From: Pseudoalteromonas sp. G4
GTDB taxonomy: Bacteria; Pseudomonadota; Gammaproteobacteria; Enterobacterales; Alteromonadaceae
NCBI RefSeq assembly: GCF_028875915.1
Contig: NZ_JAPEHW010000001.1
Location: 62,001 to 126,000 of the forward strand
Direction of reading: 5' to 3'
Length of the DNA stretch: 64,000 bases
Below, piece by piece: positions 28,891-35,380 of the stretch. The first letter of the stretch is position 1. The number at the start of each line of letters is the position of its first letter. The notes beneath the pieces are model-generated. The model ran no database searches. It saw only the letters and a list, made by a program, of their open reading frames with translations, and had not been told where the DNA came from. The translations under genes were made by a program, and so were the position numbers.

Positions 28891-30225
28891 CTATTCATTA
28901 TTTATTTCGTGCTTTTTCATTAGCTTATAAAAATCTGAACGATTGCGTTGTGCAAGTTTTGCAGCTTCTGACACATTTCCGCCTGACAGTGCTAACACCT
29001 TTCGAATGTAGTCATACTCGAACTGACGTTTGGCCTCGTTTAAGCCAACAAACGCATTATGTGTTTCATTTGAGTCGGGCAGGGCTTTTGCAACTACGTC
29101 TTCGGTTATGATTTTGCCAGCGCTAATGGCAATACAATGCTCCACAATATTATGGAGCTGACGTACATTGCCGGGCCAATCATAACTTAATAAGCGTGTA
29201 ATACTTTGCGGATTAAATTGTTTATCATCATTGGTGAGTTTGTTTAAAAAACGCGTTGCTAACAATGGAATATCATCAAGGCGCTCTTTTAAACTTGGTA
29301 GGGTGATAGACACCACATTAAGGCGATAATATAAATCTTCACGAAATTGGTTATCTTTAACCGCTTGTACAATGTTTTTATGACTTGCTGAAACAACGCG
29401 AATATCAACGTCTTGCTCAAGTTGGCTGCCGACTGGGCGAACTTTCTTTTCTTGTAATACGCGAAGTAATTTTACCTGTAAATCGAGCGGCATATCACCA
29501 ATTTCATCTAAAAACAGGGTGCCGCCATTAGCTGCTTGGACAAGGCCTTGTTTATCACTGACTGCACCTGTAAACGCCCCTTTTGTATGACCAAAAAGTT
29601 CAGATTCTAGTAAATGCCCTGGCATAGCACCACAGTTTATTGCGATAAAAGGACCATTCGCTTGCTCACTGGCTAGGTGAATGGCTTTTGCTGCAACTTC
29701 TTTACCACTGCCACTTTGCCCTTGAATAAGAATGTTCACTTTACTGTTGGCAAGCGCTTTAATTTGTTGCACCAATTGATGCATTTTCTCGCTTTGATAT
29801 AACAAGCCATGGAAATTATTAGGCTCAACCCCCACTTGCTGTGTTACTTTACCTTCAAGCGTTTTTTCAATCACGTCCAACATTTGTTGGCTGTCGATTG
29901 GCTTGGTTAAAAAGCTAACAAAGCCTTGGTGCATTGCATCGACTGCATCTGGTATCGAGCCATGAGCAGTCATCATAATGACAGGTAAGCCAGTATAAAA
30001 TTTCTTAATTTCTTGATTAAGTGCAAATCCATCCATATTGGCCATTTTAAAATCAGTTATCACTAAATCTATGGCTGTTTGCTTTAATATCGCAAGCGCT
30101 TGGTTGCCATTTTCTGCAACAGTAACCTGATAACCATGGCTCTCTAAACGGATTGCTAACAGCTCTGCAAGTGCAGTGTCATCATCAACAAGTAACAAGC
30201 TGGCGGATAAAGCATGATTGTGCAT
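28891..30225 (-). CDS. glrR: GlrR/QseF-type sigma-54-dependent response regulator
   Basis: 444 residues: receiver domain (phospho-acceptor Asp58 in LVITDFKMANMDG, Lys in FLTKP), AAA+ sigma-54 interaction domain (Walker A GQSGSGKE, GAFTGA loop in KGAFTGAVSDK, Walker B-like GGTLFLDEIGD) and a C-terminal Fis-type helix-turn-helix (SGGNVSEAAKLAQRNRSDFYKLMKKH). Phosphorylated by the partner kinase encoded upstream, it should activate sigma-54 promoters. The order glrK-yfhG-glrR equals that of enterobacteria, which supports the name. The probable target is the EF-hand cassette beyond glrK. Confidence 0.9.
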   Translation of the reverse strand: MHNHALSASLLLVDDDTALAELLAIRLESHGYQVTVAENGNQALAILKQTAIDLVITDFKMANMDGFALNQEIKKFYTGLPVIMMTAHGSIPDAVDAMHQGFVSFLTKPIDSQQMLDVIEKTLEGKVTQQVGVEPNNFHGLLYQSEKMHQLVQQIKALANSKVNILIQGQSGSGKEVAAKAIHLASEQANGPFIAINCGAMPGHLLESELFGHTKGAFTGAVSDKQGLVQAANGGTLFLDEIGDMPLDLQVKLLRVLQEKKVRPVGSQLEQDVDIRVVSASHKNIVQAVKDNQFREDLYYRLNVVSITLPSLKERLDDIPLLATRFLNKLTNDDKQFNPQSITRLLSYDWPGNVRQLHNIVEHCIAISAGKIITEDVVAKALPDSNETHNAFVGLNEAKRQFEYDYIRKVLALSGGNVSEAAKLAQRNRSDFYKLMKKHEINNE

Positions 30226-30234
30226 AATATTCCT

Positions 30235-30711
30235 TTAAAGAGAGCTTTCTAGGCGCTGTTTTTCAATATCAACTAATTTTTGTTTTAATTCAATTAGTTG
30301 TTTTTGCAATTCTAAAAGTTGTTGTTCGTGTTTTTGTGCTTTTGAATCAGAATAAAAATTGGTGATTTTTTGTTTGCGTAAATTCTCGGTATGCCATGTT
30401 AAAGATGCAAACCAAATTTGATAGTCGCTAGGCCAAATCGCTTGATTTTCAATATCACTAATAAGTTTCAGCTGTTTATTAGTTGAGTCAGTTTCACAAT
30501 AGTCACGAATAAACTGCGCAATTTCTGCATTTTCGATAACAGCTGAAGGTTGGTTATTTTCGCACACACTTAAGAATGCTTGCATCACTTGTGTGATAGG
30601 CTGATGCGTAAGTTGCTTTGTCTCAATTGGCTTCTCTACGGGCTCTTCGGTTAGTGAGCAGGCTGAGATAAGCGCGATAAAACTAATTAATAATGTATTT
30701 TTAATGATCAT
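30235..30711 (-). CDS. qseG: YfhG/QseG-type lipoprotein
   Basis: About 159 residues from the ATG at 30711, which overlaps the glrK stop as ATGA. This start gives a lipoprotein signal with lipobox ISAC (MIIKNTLLISFIALISAC); a longer frame to 30765 reads through the kinase end. The C-terminal third is a coiled coil (KAQKHEQQLLELQKQLIELK). Position between the kinase and the response regulator is that of YfhG (QseG), an outer-membrane lipoprotein that contacts GlrK and modulates it. Confidence 0.8.
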   Translation of the reverse strand: MIIKNTLLISFIALISACSLTEEPVEKPIETKQLTHQPITQVMQAFLSVCENNQPSAVIENAEIAQFIRDYCETDSTNKQLKLISDIENQAIWPSDYQIWFASLTWHTENLRKQKITNFYSDSKAQKHEQQLLELQKQLIELKQKLVDIEKQRLESSL

Positions 30712-32063
30712 AATTGTCGCGGAAAAGTGATTAATATACTTGCGCCAGCTGTGTTTTCTAGCCATTTAACATCGCCTTTTAACTGCTTAACGCACTCAGA
30801 AACAATCGCTAAACCAAGGCCTGAACCCTGATTGTTTTGACTGTGTTCGCTTTGATAAAACGGTTGAAATAATAAATGTGCTTCATCATGTTGTATGCCA
30901 GCACCATCGTCTGTCACGTTAAGCTCAATGGTATTGTTATTTTGCTTAATGTAAACATTAACGGTACTGCTTGCATGTATTAATGCATTACTTACTAACT
31001 GAGTAAGGATTAATTTGCAGGGCAAATAGGGCACCTTGCAATTAGCAGTGATATGCCAATATAAACTAACATTACTTCTTTCTATGGTATCACTTAAATG
31101 ACGATTAATTTCTTCTTCAAGAGTAGATAACTGAGTTAGTTGCTGTAAGCCATCAGGGTGGCTCGCTGCACTGTAGTTTAAAAGATCATCAATCATGCGT
31201 GCCAATTTCTCTACTGACTGCTGCACAATAGTTAAAATACGGCTTTGCTTTTCGGTTACATCACCAAGTAACCTGCTATTTAATAAGCTACTGCCTTCAT
31301 TTATGGAGGCAAGTGGGGTTTTTAGTTCGTGGGTCACATGCCGCAAAAATGTTTCTTTTTGTTGTTGCACGCGTTTAAGTTCTAACCTTAACCAATCAAG
31401 CCTTCTACCTAACTGTTTTAGTTCGTGGCTACCAGATAGTTGCACCGGTGTATCAAGTTGGCCTCGGCCTACCTCAGAAACCACTGTCTCAACCTGATCT
31501 AATTGACGGCATATTCTAAAAATTAAAAACGAACTAATAATCACAAGCACTGGTAGTAAAATAATTAAGCCAATTAAAAACTCAGTTTGTAAGTCTTTAA
31601 ACTGTGCGTTCTTTTTTGCTAATCGGTTATCAAGGGTTCGGTCAAATAGATCATCAAATTGTTTTAATTGAGCCACTAGATTTGCAAATTCGTCGACGCT
31701 TTCGACATCAATTTTTATGGTTTGTTGCCATTTTGCAACAAAATCACTGCTCTGCAGTTTTATTTTTAAAATTTCGATGCGTTTTTGTGTGTTCTGCCAT
31801 TTCTGATCGATCGATTCTTGTAACTGATCGCTTTCTAACAATTGATTGTTTTTGAGTGCTTTTTCAATCCCACTTACATCGCTTTTTATATAATTATAAT
31901 CAAGTATAAGTTGTTGATTCTCATCATATATTAAAAGGGTTTCTTGTTGGTGGTAAGAGATGCTTTGCGCATACCAAAGGGTTAAAAAAACAATCGGTAA
32001 TACCCCCACCAGCATGGCTACTAGCGCTTGTTTTTGTAAAGACTGAGAAAAAAATTGTTTCAC
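30708..32063 (-). CDS. glrK: GlrK/QseE-type sensor histidine kinase
   Basis: 451 residues. Two membrane helices (about 13-31 and 163-185) flank a periplasmic helical sensor. A HAMP region comes next (about 185-235), then HisKA (phospho-acceptor in RHVTHELKTPLASINEGSSLL, about residue 240) and HATPase_c (N box NALIHAS, G1 DDGAGI, G2 GSGLGLAIV). In enterobacteria GlrK phosphorylates GlrR in response to envelope conditions. Start of a three-gene operon with 4-base overlap to yfhG and a 9-base gap to glrR. The gap before it is shared with the divergent EF-hand cassette. Confidence 0.9.
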   Translation of the reverse strand: MKQFFSQSLQKQALVAMLVGVLPIVFLTLWYAQSISYHQQETLLIYDENQQLILDYNYIKSDVSGIEKALKNNQLLESDQLQESIDQKWQNTQKRIEILKIKLQSSDFVAKWQQTIKIDVESVDEFANLVAQLKQFDDLFDRTLDNRLAKKNAQFKDLQTEFLIGLIILLPVLVIISSFLIFRICRQLDQVETVVSEVGRGQLDTPVQLSGSHELKQLGRRLDWLRLELKRVQQQKETFLRHVTHELKTPLASINEGSSLLNSRLLGDVTEKQSRILTIVQQSVEKLARMIDDLLNYSAASHPDGLQQLTQLSTLEEEINRHLSDTIERSNVSLYWHITANCKVPYLPCKLILTQLVSNALIHASSTVNVYIKQNNNTIELNVTDDGAGIQHDEAHLLFQPFYQSEHSQNNQGSGLGLAIVSECVKQLKGDVKWLENTAGASILITFPRQL

Positions 32064-32134
32064 TAAAAAAACCTTATTAAATGGTTACCAAATGAACATA
32101 ACTTGATACATAAATCACACCTTACTGATTGTAT

Positions 32135-32152
32135 TGTTGCAAATTGGCAACA
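32135..32152. promoter_or_regulatory. Upstream activator palindrome, copy 1 (probable GlrR site)
   Basis: TGTTGC-N6-GCAACA, a perfect 18-bp dyad. Enterobacterial GlrR sites are TGTC-N10-GACA, also 18 bp. The second copy is centred 65 bp downstream. About 175 bp before the predicted start point of the EF-hand transcript. Confidence 0.7.
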
Positions 32153-32196
32153 TTTTAACTTATTGATTTTTATGTGTTTAATTTATCAATAATTAG

Positions 32197-32220
32197 ATGT
32201 GTTGCTATTTGGCAACACAT
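32197..32220. promoter_or_regulatory. Upstream activator palindrome, copy 2 (probable GlrR site)
   Basis: ATGTGTTGC-N6-GCAACACAT, perfect 9-base arms; its core is identical to copy 1. Centre about 110 bp before the predicted sigma-54 start point, a usual distance for enhancer-binding proteins. Confidence 0.7.
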
Positions 32221-32290
32221 TTTAAGCTGGTTTTTAGATGATTTCGCAAATTAAAAATGTAAAGCATTGTTTTTAATGCTTTTTTCAAAG

Positions 32291-32307
32291 TTGGCACCAA
32301 AGTTGGA
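32291..32307 (+). promoter_or_regulatory. Sigma-54 -24/-12 promoter of the EF-hand cassette
   Basis: TTGGCACC-AAAG-TTGGA matches the TGGCACR-N4-TTGCW consensus except that the -12 GC is GG. The GG (32293-32294) to G (32305) spacing is right. The start point should be near 32318, giving a leader of about 94 bases with a hairpin at 32348-32374 (GCTTAAC / GTTAAGC). Confidence 0.7.
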
Positions 32308-32411
32308 ATATCCTAGTTGTCAGTGCGAAAGCATAAAACGCTAACAAGCTTAACAAATGTATTTTGGGTTAAGCAAAAATTAATCGATTTCCAATTTAGG
32401 GGGAAATACCA

Positions 32412-32636
32412 ATGCAGATCAGAGCAATTGCATATGTAACAGCGGTTCTTGGTGCAGCAGCACTTAACACTCAAGCAAGCACTTTATTCAGTGAATTAGA
32501 CCTAAATAATGATGGCTATATCTCTGAAGTAGAAGCGGGTGTGAACAGCATTTTATCAGCAGCATTCGAAGAGCTAGACGTTAATGAAGACGCAAAGCTA
32601 AGTAAAGAAGAGTTTGCAGCCTTTAAAGGCGAATAA
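32412..32636 (+). CDS. Exported EF-hand protein 1
   Basis: 74 residues: signal peptide (about 1-22, cleavage near TQAS) and two EF-hand loops. The first, DLNNDGYISEVE, is canonical (D1, N3, D5, G6, I8, E12). The second, DVNEDAKLSKEE, has Ala for Gly at position 6 but keeps the other ligands. A mature protein of about 50 residues would bind up to two calcium ions in the periplasm or outside. AGGGGGAAA precedes the ATG. It is the first gene after the sigma-54 promoter. It differs most from the three that follow. Confidence 0.85.
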   Translation: MQIRAIAYVTAVLGAAALNTQASTLFSELDLNNDGYISEVEAGVNSILSAAFEELDVNEDAKLSKEEFAAFKGE

Positions 32637-32648
32637 ATTAAAACAATG

Positions 32649-32667
32649 GGGAAGTGCGCTACTTTCC
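32649..32667 (+). other. Short hairpin between EF-hand genes 1 and 2
   Basis: GGGAAGT-N5-ACTTTCC (7 bp, one G-T pair) with no T-run. A similar hairpin follows gene 2, so these are likely RNA processing or stability elements. Confidence 0.45.
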
Positions 32668-32710
32668 AATTTATTTGAATACCCAAAAGTAAAGATGAAA
32701 GGAAATTAAA

Positions 32711-32926
32711 ATGAAAAAATTAGTAATGTCAGTAATGGTAGTTGCAAGTTCATTTTCAGTAGTTGCAGCTGATGATTTCGCATCATTTGATGTTGATGGT
32801 AACGGTGCAATTAGCATTGAAGAAGCGGCTACAAACGAAGCACTTTCTGAGCAATTCAAATCTCTTGATACTGATGGCAATGGCGAGTTAAGCAAAGACG
32901 AGTTTGCCTCTTTTAAAGGCGAGTAA
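32711..32926 (+). CDS. Exported EF-hand protein 2
   Basis: 71 residues: signal peptide (MKKLVMSVMVVASSFSVVAA) and two canonical EF-hand loops, DVDGNGAISIEE and DTDGNGELSKDE. Near-duplicate of gene 3 in protein, ribosome-binding site and leader. AAAGGAAATTAAA precedes the ATG. Probably co-transcribed with genes 1 and 3. Confidence 0.88.
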   Translation: MKKLVMSVMVVASSFSVVAADDFASFDVDGNGAISIEEAATNEALSEQFKSLDTDGNGELSKDEFASFKGE

Positions 32927-32935
32927 TCGCCAATC

Positions 32936-32952
32936 GAAAGTTCGATACTTTC
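32936..32952 (+). other. Short hairpin between EF-hand genes 2 and 3
   Basis: GAAAGT-TCGAT-ACTTTC, no T-run. Counterpart of the 32649-32667 hairpin; it is duplicated along with the gene unit. Confidence 0.45.
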
Positions 32953-32996
32953 AAACCAGTTTAGATACCCAAAGTGAAGATGAAGGAAGTTAAAAA

Positions 32997-33212
32997 ATGA
33001 AAAAATTAGTTATGTCAGTATTTGTTATCGCAAGTTCATTCTCAGCTATTGCAGCAGACGACTTTGCAACATTAGATGTTGATAACAGCGGCACTATTAG
33101 CAAAGAAGAAGCGATGCAAAATGTATCTTTAGTTCACCAGTTTAAAGACTTAGATGCAGACAGTAATGGCGAATTAAGCAAGGAAGAATTTGCTAACTTT
33201 AAAGCGTCATAA
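32997..33212 (+). CDS. Exported EF-hand protein 3
   Basis: 71 residues: signal peptide (MKKLVMSVFVIASSFSAIAA) and two EF-hand loops, DVDNSGTISKEE and DADSNGELSKEE. It arose by tandem duplication with gene 2: the leader sequence ACCCAAA-GT-AAGATGAA-GGAA before each ATG is nearly the same. A strong terminator follows, so the main transcript probably ends here. Confidence 0.88.
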   Translation: MKKLVMSVFVIASSFSAIAADDFATLDVDNSGTISKEEAMQNVSLVHQFKDLDADSNGELSKEEFANFKAS

Positions 33213-33240
33213 CGTTTAAGGCTCTAGATATCCGTTTTAC

Positions 33241-33298
33241 AGTCGGGCTTACTTTACTCCTTGTCAATCAGTATGCCGAGTGAGTCCGACTTTTTTTA
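33241..33298 (+). terminator. Rho-independent terminator after EF-hand gene 3
   Basis: AGTCGGGCTTACT pairs with AGTGAGTCCGACT (13 bp with two G-T pairs) across a long loop, followed by seven T. Gene 4 lies beyond it and would need read-through or its own promoter. Confidence 0.8.
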
Positions 33299-33319
33299 AT
33301 TCAAAAAGTAGTATGTGAA

Positions 33320-33544
33320 ATGAAAAAGGCAGTTATTCTCGCTATATCAATGTATGTAATGTTATTTGTCACAGTAAAAGCCGTTGCAGATGAAGAGTTT
33401 GCTTTGTTCGATTCTGACAACAACGGCACCATTAGTTTAGAAGAAGCCAAAATTAATCACACACTACTTGAACAATTTACACATTTAGACCGTGATAATA
33501 ATGGTGAATTAAGCCCACAAGAATTTGCCAAATTCACAGGATAA
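33320..33544 (+). CDS. Exported EF-hand protein 4
   Basis: 74 residues: longer signal peptide (cleavage near AVADE) and two EF-hand loops, DSDNNGTISLEE and DRDNNGELSPQE, both canonical. Same plan as genes 2 and 3 but more diverged. It begins 22 bp after a strong terminator, with no good ribosome-binding site, so its expression is uncertain. Confidence 0.8.
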   Translation: MKKAVILAISMYVMLFVTVKAVADEEFALFDSDNNGTISLEEAKINHTLLEQFTHLDRDNNGELSPQEFAKFTG

Positions 33545-33700
33545 TCCCAAATCAACCCTCCCTAGTGCGGCCTGAACTATTTTTTGTTGGACATGAATAC
33601 TTTTACGGTCGCACTATTTATATCTTTGCCTGAAAAATATCTTTTCTTTTGATATGGCTTATATAAGCTGTTTATATCGTTAATTTTAATAACAAATACC

Positions 33701-34171
33701 ATGACGCCAGCAATTAAAGCGTTAGAAAAAGCCAAAGTTGGATTTTCTGTGCACCAGTACGAACACGACAGTAATGCACCATCGTACGGTTTGGAAGCAA
33801 GTGAAAAATTAGGTGTAGCTACAGATAAAGTATTTAAAACCTTAGTCACCAACCTTGATAGTGGCGATTTAGTGGTTGCGATTATTCCCGTCGATCAAAA
33901 ATTAAATCTAAAAGCTGTGGCGAAGGCGAGTAAAGCAAAAAAAGCAAAAATGGCTGATCCGATAGATGTAGAACGCGCTACAGGGTATGTTTTAGGTGGG
34001 GTGAGTCCTCTAGGCCAAAAAAAGCGCCTTAAAACCCTGCTTGATGAATCAGCTAAAGCGCAATCAACCATTTATATCAGTGCAGGTCGTCGCGGTCTTG
34101 AAGTTGAATTAAGTGCCACTGATCTTCTTAAAATCACTAATGGGCAATTTGCGCAGTTAAAAGCTGAGTAA
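33701..34171 (+). CDS. ybaK: Cys-tRNA(Pro)/Cys-tRNA(Cys) deacylase YbaK
   Basis: 156 residues, the usual length of the YbaK/EbsC single-domain trans-editing enzyme, which hydrolyses Cys mischarged on tRNA(Pro) in the cytoplasm. Recognised from FSVHQYEHD, EASEKLGVATDKVFKTLV, the catalytic Lys segment VDQKLNLKAVAKA, GYVLGGVSPLGQKKRLKT and YISAGRRGLEVELSATDL. Monocistronic, without a clear link to the EF-hand or phosphonate genes. Confidence 0.93.
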   Translation: MTPAIKALEKAKVGFSVHQYEHDSNAPSYGLEASEKLGVATDKVFKTLVTNLDSGDLVVAIIPVDQKLNLKAVAKASKAKKAKMADPIDVERATGYVLGGVSPLGQKKRLKTLLDESAKAQSTIYISAGRRGLEVELSATDLLKITNGQFAQLKAE

Positions 34172-34247
34172 GTTGACTACCAAAGCAATAACTACAAATA
34201 TTTGTCATTGAAGTTTCATAATTCCATACAATTTTTTGTGATTAAAT

Positions 34248-34267
34248 AATCTGGACTATACCAGATT
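34248..34267 (+). promoter_or_regulatory. Palindromic operator upstream of phnW
   Basis: AATCTGG-ACTATA-CCAGATT, perfect 7-base arms, 12 bp before the phnW start codon. The core TCTGGACTATACCA differs at only two positions from TCTGGTCTAGACCA before the TonB receptor gene. Its size and half-site spacing fit GntR/HutC regulators. It lies where it would block RNA polymerase or early elongation. Confidence 0.7.
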
Positions 34268-34279
34268 GGAAAAGATGAA

Positions 34280-35380
34280 ATGAATGAATACTTGTTATTG
34301 ACGCCGGGCCCACTCTCAACCAGTGAGACAGTTAAACAGGCAATGCTTAAAGATTGGTGTACCTGGGATGACGACTATAACATTGAGATTGTAGAGGCGA
34401 TCCGTGCAAAACTCACCGCACTTGCGAGTAACACTTACGATTATACCAGTGTATTAATGCAAGGTAGTGGCACTGCAAGCGTTGAATCAGCACTTGGCAG
34501 TTTAATTAAAAATACCGATAAACTGCTTATTATCAATAATGGCGCTTATGGTAAGCGCATCGCTGAAATAGCAAAGTACCTAAATATCAATGCAATAGTG
34601 CTTAATTTAAATGAGACTCAGCTGCCAGATATGGCAGAAGTTGAAGAGCAATTACAAGCGCAAAGTGATATTACTCATATTGCAATGGTGCACTGCGAAA
34701 CCACCACGGGCATGCTTAACCCGGTTGCAGAAATGGGCGCCCTTGCTAAAAAATACAATAAAACCTTTATATTAGATGCAATGAGCAGCTTTGGTGGTAT
34801 TGAGCTTGATATGGCTGAACTAAACATAGATGTGCTTATAAGCTCTGCTAATAAATGTATTCAAGGTGTACCGGGTTTTGGTTTTGTGATTGTTAAAAAG
34901 GCAATTATTGAAAAATGCCAAGGTATTGCACGTTCACTTAGCTTAGATTTGTACGCGCAGTGGAAAACCATGGAAGAACACAATGGTAAGTGGCGTTTCA
35001 CGTCACCGACTCATGTGGTAAGAGCTTTCCATCAAGCGCTTTTGGAACTAGAAGAGGAAGGTGGTGTAAAAGCCCGCTATAACCGCTACAAAACAAATCA
35101 ACAGCGTTTAGTTGATGGTATGCAAGCACTTGGTTTTACCACCTTGCTAGCGAAAGAGCTTCATTCGCCGATTATCACCTCGTTTTATTCACCAAAGAGT
35201 AATCAATATAACTTTGGCCTTTTTTACAGTGCGTTAAAAGAGCAAGGGTTTGTGATTTATCCAGGGAAAGTATCTGATGCCGATTGCTTTCGTATTGGCA
35301 ATATTGGCGAAATTTACCCAAATGATATTGACCAACTACTTAGCGCAATAGAGCGCAGTCGATTTTGGTTAGAAGCATAA
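34280..35380 (+). CDS. phnW: 2-aminoethylphosphonate--pyruvate transaminase
   Basis: 366 residues, typical length. Fold-type I PLP aminotransferase: [19 protein letters not shown] opening, PLP Asp166 in [10 protein letters not shown], and Schiff-base Lys192 in [16 protein letters not shown]. It converts AEP and pyruvate to phosphonoacetaldehyde and L-alanine; the aldehyde is the substrate of phnX encoded 4 kb away on the other strand. The palindrome at 34248-34267 suggests shared control with the TonB receptor gene. A bidirectional terminator follows. Confidence 0.94.

Follow-up and report, generated by a model that had tools for sequence, protein, structure and literature searches.

The glrK locus and its divergent control region

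The window, the whole 64,000-nucleotide stretch of the Pseudoalteromonas sp. G4 genome that was analyzed, carries genes of a GlrK/GlrR two-component system on its minus strand and, divergent from them, four small genes for EF-hand proteins. The features of this locus are as follows.

28891–30225, minus strand: glrR, response regulator and sigma-54 activator with GAFTGA and a Fis-type helix-turn-helix (Pfam Response_reg, Sigma54_activat, HTH_8)
30235–30711, minus strand: qseG/yfhG-like lipoprotein gene; open reading frame (ORF) with likely start MIIKNTLLIS... and lipobox-like LISAC, overlapping the glrK stop
30708–32063, minus strand: glrK, membrane sensor kinase (HAMP, HisKA, HATPase), kept across the genus
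31723–31740, no strand: third GlrR-type dyad, TGTTGCCATTTTGCAACA, within glrK
32135–32152, no strand: UAS1, perfect dyad TGTTGC-N6-GCAACA
32156–32168, plus strand: IHF-like site 1, TAACTTATTGATT, perfect against the consensus YAANNNNTTGATW, between UAS1 and UAS2
32200–32217, no strand: UAS2, perfect dyad TGTTGC-N6-GCAACA, 65 bp from UAS1
32260–32272, plus strand: IHF-like site 2, TAAAGCATTGTTT, one mismatch, 32 nt 5' of the TGG of the next element
32291–32307, plus strand: -24/-12 element, TTGGCACCAAAGTTGGA, a sequence conserved in the genus
32412–32636, plus strand: EF-hand protein 1, 74 aa, probably exported (ORF and Pfam EF-hand)
32711–32926, plus strand: EF-hand protein 2, 71 aa, probably exported (ORF and Pfam EF-hand)
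32997–33212, plus strand: EF-hand protein 3, 71 aa, probably exported (ORF and Pfam EF-hand)
33241–33297, plus strand: terminator-like hairpin between EF-hand genes 3 and 4, 14-bp stem with a U run at its end (-21.1 kcal/mol, z -4.0)
33320–33544, plus strand: EF-hand protein 4, 74 aa, probably exported, past the hairpin (ORF and Pfam EF-hand)

The top NCBIfam match of the window's GlrR is the GlrR equivalog, at 550.7 bits and below its 763-bit cut-off, and the recognition helix reads RNRSDFYKLM in the window and RNRTEFYKLL in E. coli. The gene at 30235–30711, with a start chosen by eye, yielded no Pfam or NCBIfam match at 1e-3; it is named by position and lipobox only. The order and strands of glrK-qseG-glrR are the same in the window and in Pseudoalteromonas xiamenensis, the qseG-like gene being recognized by its position and lipobox. 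The initial annotation had placed four small plus-strand EF-hand genes beside glrK and an enhancer-binding protein with GAFTGA in the adjacent glrR, and both statements are borne out, with all four EF-hand ORFs exceeding the Pfam gathering cut-offs and the motif present in glrR. It had also described one control region driving a four-gene cassette, of which the genes and the promoter element are confirmed, whereas the hairpin at 33241–33297 separates gene 3 from gene 4, so the four genes may not share one transcript; its presence may lower or uncouple the expression of gene 4. A mechanical terminator scan, restricted to loops of at most 8 nt, omits this hairpin and lists a weaker one between genes 1 and 2.

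The two dyads lie exactly where they had been annotated, with centers 65 bp apart, and they fit the published QseF/GlrR site TGT-N12-ACA. In the 4.40-Mb genome the pattern TGTTGC-N6-GCAACA occurs four times (reversed control pattern, twice), and three of the four occurrences fall within 500 bp at glrK because the third dyad sits inside the kinase gene. The start of UAS2 is 92 nt from the TGG of the -24/-12 element. The position of this element was likewise exact, but its count of a single mismatch has to be amended: besides a G in place of the strongly conserved C at -12, there is a second, weaker mismatch at the R following TGGCAC. From the position of the element, transcription of the EF-hand genes would be expected to start near 32318.

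Conservation in Pseudoalteromonas and co-occurrence with GlrR

We surveyed 108 genomes of the genus, finding a kinase match in 100 and a full-length GlrK-like protein in 87, and it is these 87 loci that were examined. EF-hand ORFs are divergent from glrK at 84 of them, the exceptions being L019, L098 and L102, and the three genomes lacking the glrK-side cassette still carry EF-hand genes elsewhere together with the dyad and -24/-12 element, hereafter the unit. TGGCAY-N5-TTG is present in the first 340 nt at 81/87 loci; 35 loci have their last dyad starting 92 nt from TGG, two exact dyads 65–69 bp apart are found in 28, and 24 of the 51 dyad-bearing loci have a perfect IHF site, judged by sequence consensus only, after the first dyad. 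In the more distant clade B (51 loci, GlrK 30–35% identical), the complete dyad, where present, is positioned farther out, and the dyad proximal to the promoter is degenerate (TGTTGC...ACA), lying 90–92 nt from TGG in 32 loci and about 101 nt from it in 9; this degenerate site was not found in 10 of the 51 loci, 5 of which are also without the promoter motif. Alignment of 18 control regions revealed conserved blocks corresponding to a dyad, an IHF-like site, a dyad, an IHF-like site and the -24/-12 element, with little conserved between them. The initial annotation had named lack of conservation in relatives as the outcome that would speak against its reading; across the 108-genome survey, the EF-hand genes are retained along with the dyads, the -24/-12 element and their spacing, at loci distant from glrK as well, and all of these track GlrR, and that objection fails.

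The dyad inside glrK is kept in position, within 1 mismatch, in 33 of the 34 clade A loci and also in L069 and L070; it is broken in L019, the sole clade A locus without the EF-hand cassette. The Val codon in this dyad is GTT in 34/34 clade A loci. Among the first 150 glrK codons, counted on the presumption of a gap-free alignment up to codon 150, 21 have an invariant amino acid and two of these (an Asn and the dyad Val) never vary as codons, the Val being the only four-fold degenerate one. This constancy hints at, without proving, selection that acts on the third dyad as DNA.

All 108 genomes were then scanned for a dyad followed after 60–90 nt by TGGCAH-N5-TTG, with the reversed pattern as control. 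The unit gave 116 matches in 85/108 genomes and the control 0/108. Of these matches, 36 are within 1.5 kb of glrK; the other 80, spread over 62 genomes, lie 5 kb or more from it or else on a different contig. These matches reduce to 113 distinct 140-nt stretches that were read (the other three may be identical copies), and an EF-hand ORF follows within 1.5 kb in 111 of the 113 by script and in a 112th (L150) on reading, leaving L122 (minus strand, gap 84) with no EF-hand ORF within 1.5 kb; away from glrK, 76 of the 77 distinct units read precede EF-hand genes. The gap from dyad to TGG is 74 in 95/111 units and 73 in 13/111. An IHF consensus with at most 1 mismatch occurs in 37 of 54 non-redundant units, 34 of these at one position, compared with 7.4 in shuffles that preserve letter composition only. 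The unit supplies a sequence rule by which EF-hand genes throughout a common marine genus can be assigned to a single predicted regulon. At L035, L038 and L056, which are second EF-hand loci, the unit follows genes that read by eye as a TrkH-like potassium transporter and a PilZ-like protein.

The mechanical scan lists both dyads at glrK as terminator-like, one per strand, and hairpins followed by T might be taken as transcription terminators and not as protein-binding sites. The fixed distances from dyad to dyad and from dyad to -24/-12 element, the recurrence of dyads ahead of EF-hand genes elsewhere in the genome and the presence of one within the coding sequence of glrK all argue otherwise, and we regard the terminator explanation as almost certainly wrong.

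The presence of the unit was compared with that of GlrR, called at E 1e-120, and of EF-hand homologues, called at E 1e-4. GlrR is found in 87 of the 108 genomes; 85 of these have the unit, which is absent from all 21 genomes that lack GlrR. EF-hand homologues are present in exactly the same 87 genomes and in 0/21 of the others, G104 being counted among the negatives by elimination. In the two genomes with GlrR and without the strict unit (G035 and G065), the dyad and the -24/-12 element at glrK (L117 and L120) are farther apart. RpoN is present in 107/108 genomes, missing only in G049, a less complete genome, so the distribution of the unit and the EF-hand genes does not follow sigma-54. On an RpoN tree of 90 of the 107 RpoN-bearing genomes (21 without GlrR and 69 with), the GlrR/EF-hand trait changes at least 6 times and 6/6 independent pairs agree (sign test, p 0.031), with the qualification that GlrR and EF-hand presence are identical and thus one vector entered twice in the pair test, and that this short-search tree does not distinguish gain from loss. 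Joint loss of GlrR and a cassette adjoining glrK could be a single deletion. G090, without GlrR, is sister to a clade with EF-hand genes at several separate places; if G090 lost them, more than one deletion would have been needed.

The departure from the sigma-54 consensus at -12 is uniform. The -24 element is TGGCAC or TGGCAT and TTG is present at -12, but TTG is followed by T, G or A, and never by C, in 113/113 units and in 81/81 glrK-linked elements. A search of the window genome with TGGCAY-N5-TTGCW returned 12 matches, no excess over the 9 of the reversed control; two of the 12 precede ORFs that read by eye as the flagellar proteins FlgF and FliE. The lack of C in all 113 units would suit a promoter that GlrR controls but that is not a normal sigma-54 promoter, for instance one served by another sigma factor, alternative or overlapping. 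We consider this unlikely, given that TGGCA is held at a fixed spacing to TTG, that the IHF site and UAS stand at a near-fixed distance and that the mechanical scan lists no sigma-70-like promoter on the plus strand between 32000 and 33700. In two loci of other genera (L268 and L269), the C at -12 is present downstream of a dyad, though 69–70 nt from the dyad start and not 92. With sigma-54 as the preferred reading, we postulate that these EF-hand promoters are tuned to need strong activation.

Comparison with glmY of E. coli and with loci beyond the genus

In the literature consulted, GlrK/GlrR is described in enterobacteria through glmY and rpoE, its role and signal being weakly defined, and the QseF (GlrR) site is given as TGTN12ACA, with three sites plus IHF (PMC6075780); for Proteus glmY, three QseF sites and two IHF sites are listed as putative (PMC8745638). 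Upstream of glmY in E. coli K-12 we find, in order, TGTCGCTTTCTGGCGACA, TAACTCATTGATTTT, then TGTCTCTTTTTAGCGACA and TTGGCACAGTTACTGCA, with an IHF-like TAACTCATTGATT right after a UAS, matching the place of IHF-like site 1 in the window. The E. coli system, there called QseE/G/F, shares with ours the gene order glrK-qseG-glrR, 18-bp UAS dyads 63 bp apart (65–69 in Pseudoalteromonas) with an IHF site directly after one, and the -24 element TTGGCAC. As had been annotated, the enterobacterial dyads equal the window's in length, with TGTCGC-N6-GCGACA at glmY and TGTTGC-N6-GCAACA in the window. The UAS-IHF-UAS cores of the window and of E. coli glmY align with a score of 75, compared with 300 shuffles, again keeping letter composition only, that average 34 and never exceed 54.

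There are also differences between the two systems: 1) the last UAS is 107 nt from the promoter in E. coli and 92 nt in the window; 2) glmY, flanked by the enhancer and glrK, is oriented towards glrK, whereas the EF-hand genes point away; 3) the targets are glmY and rpoE in E. coli, and in Pseudoalteromonas the predicted targets code for EF-hand proteins, both divergently from glrK and at several other loci; 4) the -12 C is absent in Pseudoalteromonas. The second of these refines the proposal that the same place near glrK drives glmY in enterobacteria and calcium-binding proteins here. GlmY itself was rejected as a target here, as RF00128 had no match at 31500–34500 of the window and none in 21 genomes (the window's and 20 relatives; 13 of the 21 belong to the genus), with the E. 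coli control positive; the single Rfam match at the locus, a sub-threshold CPEB3, was taken as noise.

Across the order, 394 genomes were sampled, and the 30 best GlrK loci (28 from outside the genus) were read for neighbors within about 1.5 kb. An EF-hand ORF is divergent from the kinase in 12 of the 28, which belong to the window's family and two others, and none was seen within about 1.5 kb at the remaining 16, from four other families. A TGT-N12-ACA dyad lies between kinase and EF-hand ORF in 10 of the 12 loci, being absent in L263 and L264. One EF-hand protein per locus, taken from ten of the 12, exceeds the Pfam EF-hand cut-offs in each case. Two of these loci, L261 (g129, another family) and L262 (g2), have EF-hand genes and dyads, and their kinases fit the genus GlrK profile far better than those of the other outside loci; either whole-module transfer or old descent would account for them.

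Outside the genus, 28 of the 30 units read precede genes other than EF-hand genes. In g18, of the same family (L155–L166), TGTYGC-N6-GCRACA is followed after 83–84 nt by TGGCAC...TTGTA, then a short ORF (MDLFLLGTVLFLLANVAV...) and a GlrK-like kinase, an arrangement that looks like self-control of the kinase operon. In g24 (L167–L179), what follows a similar dyad and TGGCAY-N5-TTG is a lipoprotein-like ORF together with another conserved one (MSTESNYTPPEVW...), with no EF-hand, and another activator or regulator may act at these units. GlrR or similar regulators therefore appear to have other targets too.

Both groups bear on alternatives to EF-hand genes as the GlrR target. The g18 arrangement and the dyad within glrK would be in keeping with dyads that mainly autoregulate glrK-qseG-glrR, the EF-hand genes being passengers. 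We find this very improbable, as the 80 matches away from glrK, where all but one of the distinct units read precede EF-hand genes, and a -24/-12 element that faces the EF-hand genes speak against it. Palindromes alone do not identify the protein that binds them, and the g24 units precede unrelated genes, so the dyads might be bound by another regulator of the TGT-N12-ACA type with the GlrR neighborhood incidental; TyrR boxes resemble this dyad in outline. This seems quite unlikely in view of the distribution of the unit with GlrR (85/87 vs. 0/21), the 18-bp form and IHF neighbor shared with the E. coli glmY sites, and the conserved recognition helix of the helix-turn-helix. GlrR remains the regulator that we favor for the EF-hand units.

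EF-hand proteins and the predicted GlrR regulon

From the loci we collected 419 distinct two-EF-hand ORFs, giving 838 loops by a pattern that itself demands D at position 1 and E at position 12; Ser is at position 9 in 742. The ORFs have a mean charge of -7 beyond residue 20, and none of the 419 has Cys after residue 22. By an export heuristic, a hydrophobic stretch and an AxA-like site are present in 379/419, with K/R ahead of the stretch in 302, suggesting that the proteins are probably exported. The closest solved structures by sequence are calcium-binding proteins and calmodulins. In P. xiamenensis (L369, 1302–3662), ten tandem EF-hand ORFs lie next to glrK, where the annotation gives seven hypothetical proteins and one CoA-transferase.

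Several known calcium-binding systems were considered. Lanmodulin is likewise a small EF-hand protein, but its profile matches three of the four window proteins weakly, at 27–32 bits against a cut-off of 135 bits, and Pro at 2 or Asp at 9, both lanmodulin traits, is found in 0/838 loops; lanmodulin was rejected. The Buf_EGKC|EF-hand_5 MNIO precursors (PMC12452194) have EF-hand_5 pairs in small envelope proteins, as here; identity with these precursors was rejected, the window family having no Cys after residue 22. Caulobacter CaBP-sigV (PMC13171946) also ties a small Sec-exported EF-hand protein to an adjoining stress regulator, but this is an ECF sigma factor and not a sigma-54 activator, and in place of a multi-locus family there is a single 133-aa protein. 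Pseudomonas aeruginosa EfhP, cited in PMC12452194, is a bacterial EF-hand protein with a calcium role and no GlrR link in the text consulted.

A full-text search, with subscription papers largely outside its range, found no literature linking GlrR or QseF with EF-hand proteins. Passages from two papers that name both Pseudoalteromonas and EF-hand do not concern GlrR-controlled EF-hand genes, and those from a sigma-54 regulon paper (PMC3162934) name QseF with EF-hand and calcium absent. Pseudoalteromonas and GlrR are mentioned together in a Salmonella paper.

Conservation, tracking with GlrR and the alignment with the glmY core support the regulatory reading of the initial annotation, a sigma-54/GlrR region driving EF-hand genes. 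We consider it highly probable that the units define a GlrR/sigma-54/IHF regulon of small exported two-EF-hand calcium-binding proteins. The parts, their geometry, the association with EF-hand genes and the co-occurrence with GlrR were read from sequence, and from them we infer binding, activation, export, calcium function and signal. GlrK, aided by the lipoprotein encoded alongside, would phosphorylate GlrR, which would then bind the 18-bp dyads UAS1 and UAS2 and perhaps also the dyad inside glrK. With IHF bending the DNA of the control region, GlrR would, via GAFTGA, open RNA polymerase-sigma-54 held at the -24/-12 element, and EF-hand mRNA would be made at glrK and, in many species, from other copies of the unit. 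Transcription would accordingly depend on GlrR binding, sigma-54 and IHF, and it might respond to calcium. The proteins would reach the periplasm or surface and bind calcium there, most likely for envelope calcium buffering or sensing.

A broader proposal, which we hold tentatively and think somewhat more apt to be wrong than right, is that GlrK/QseG/GlrR has long controlled exported calcium-binding EF-hand miniproteins in marine gammaproteobacteria, and that its enhancer was wired later, or separately, to glmY in enterobacteria. If this were true, the natural cue of the system in these marine bacteria would be the envelope calcium or divalent-cation state, and the EF-hand proteins would close a feedback loop on the kinase or its lipoprotein partner.

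The uniform absence of the -12 C offers a ready natural variant for studies of sigma-54 promoters, and the locus is an example of one enhancer core retained while its target differs between lineages. GlrK/GlrR is an envelope-signaling system with a small RNA as its output in E. coli; in Pseudoalteromonas it appears to switch on tiny exported calcium-binding proteins at several genome sites. This second, widely conserved class of targets, calcium-binding envelope proteins, would suggest a purpose for the system and give a direct test of its cue.
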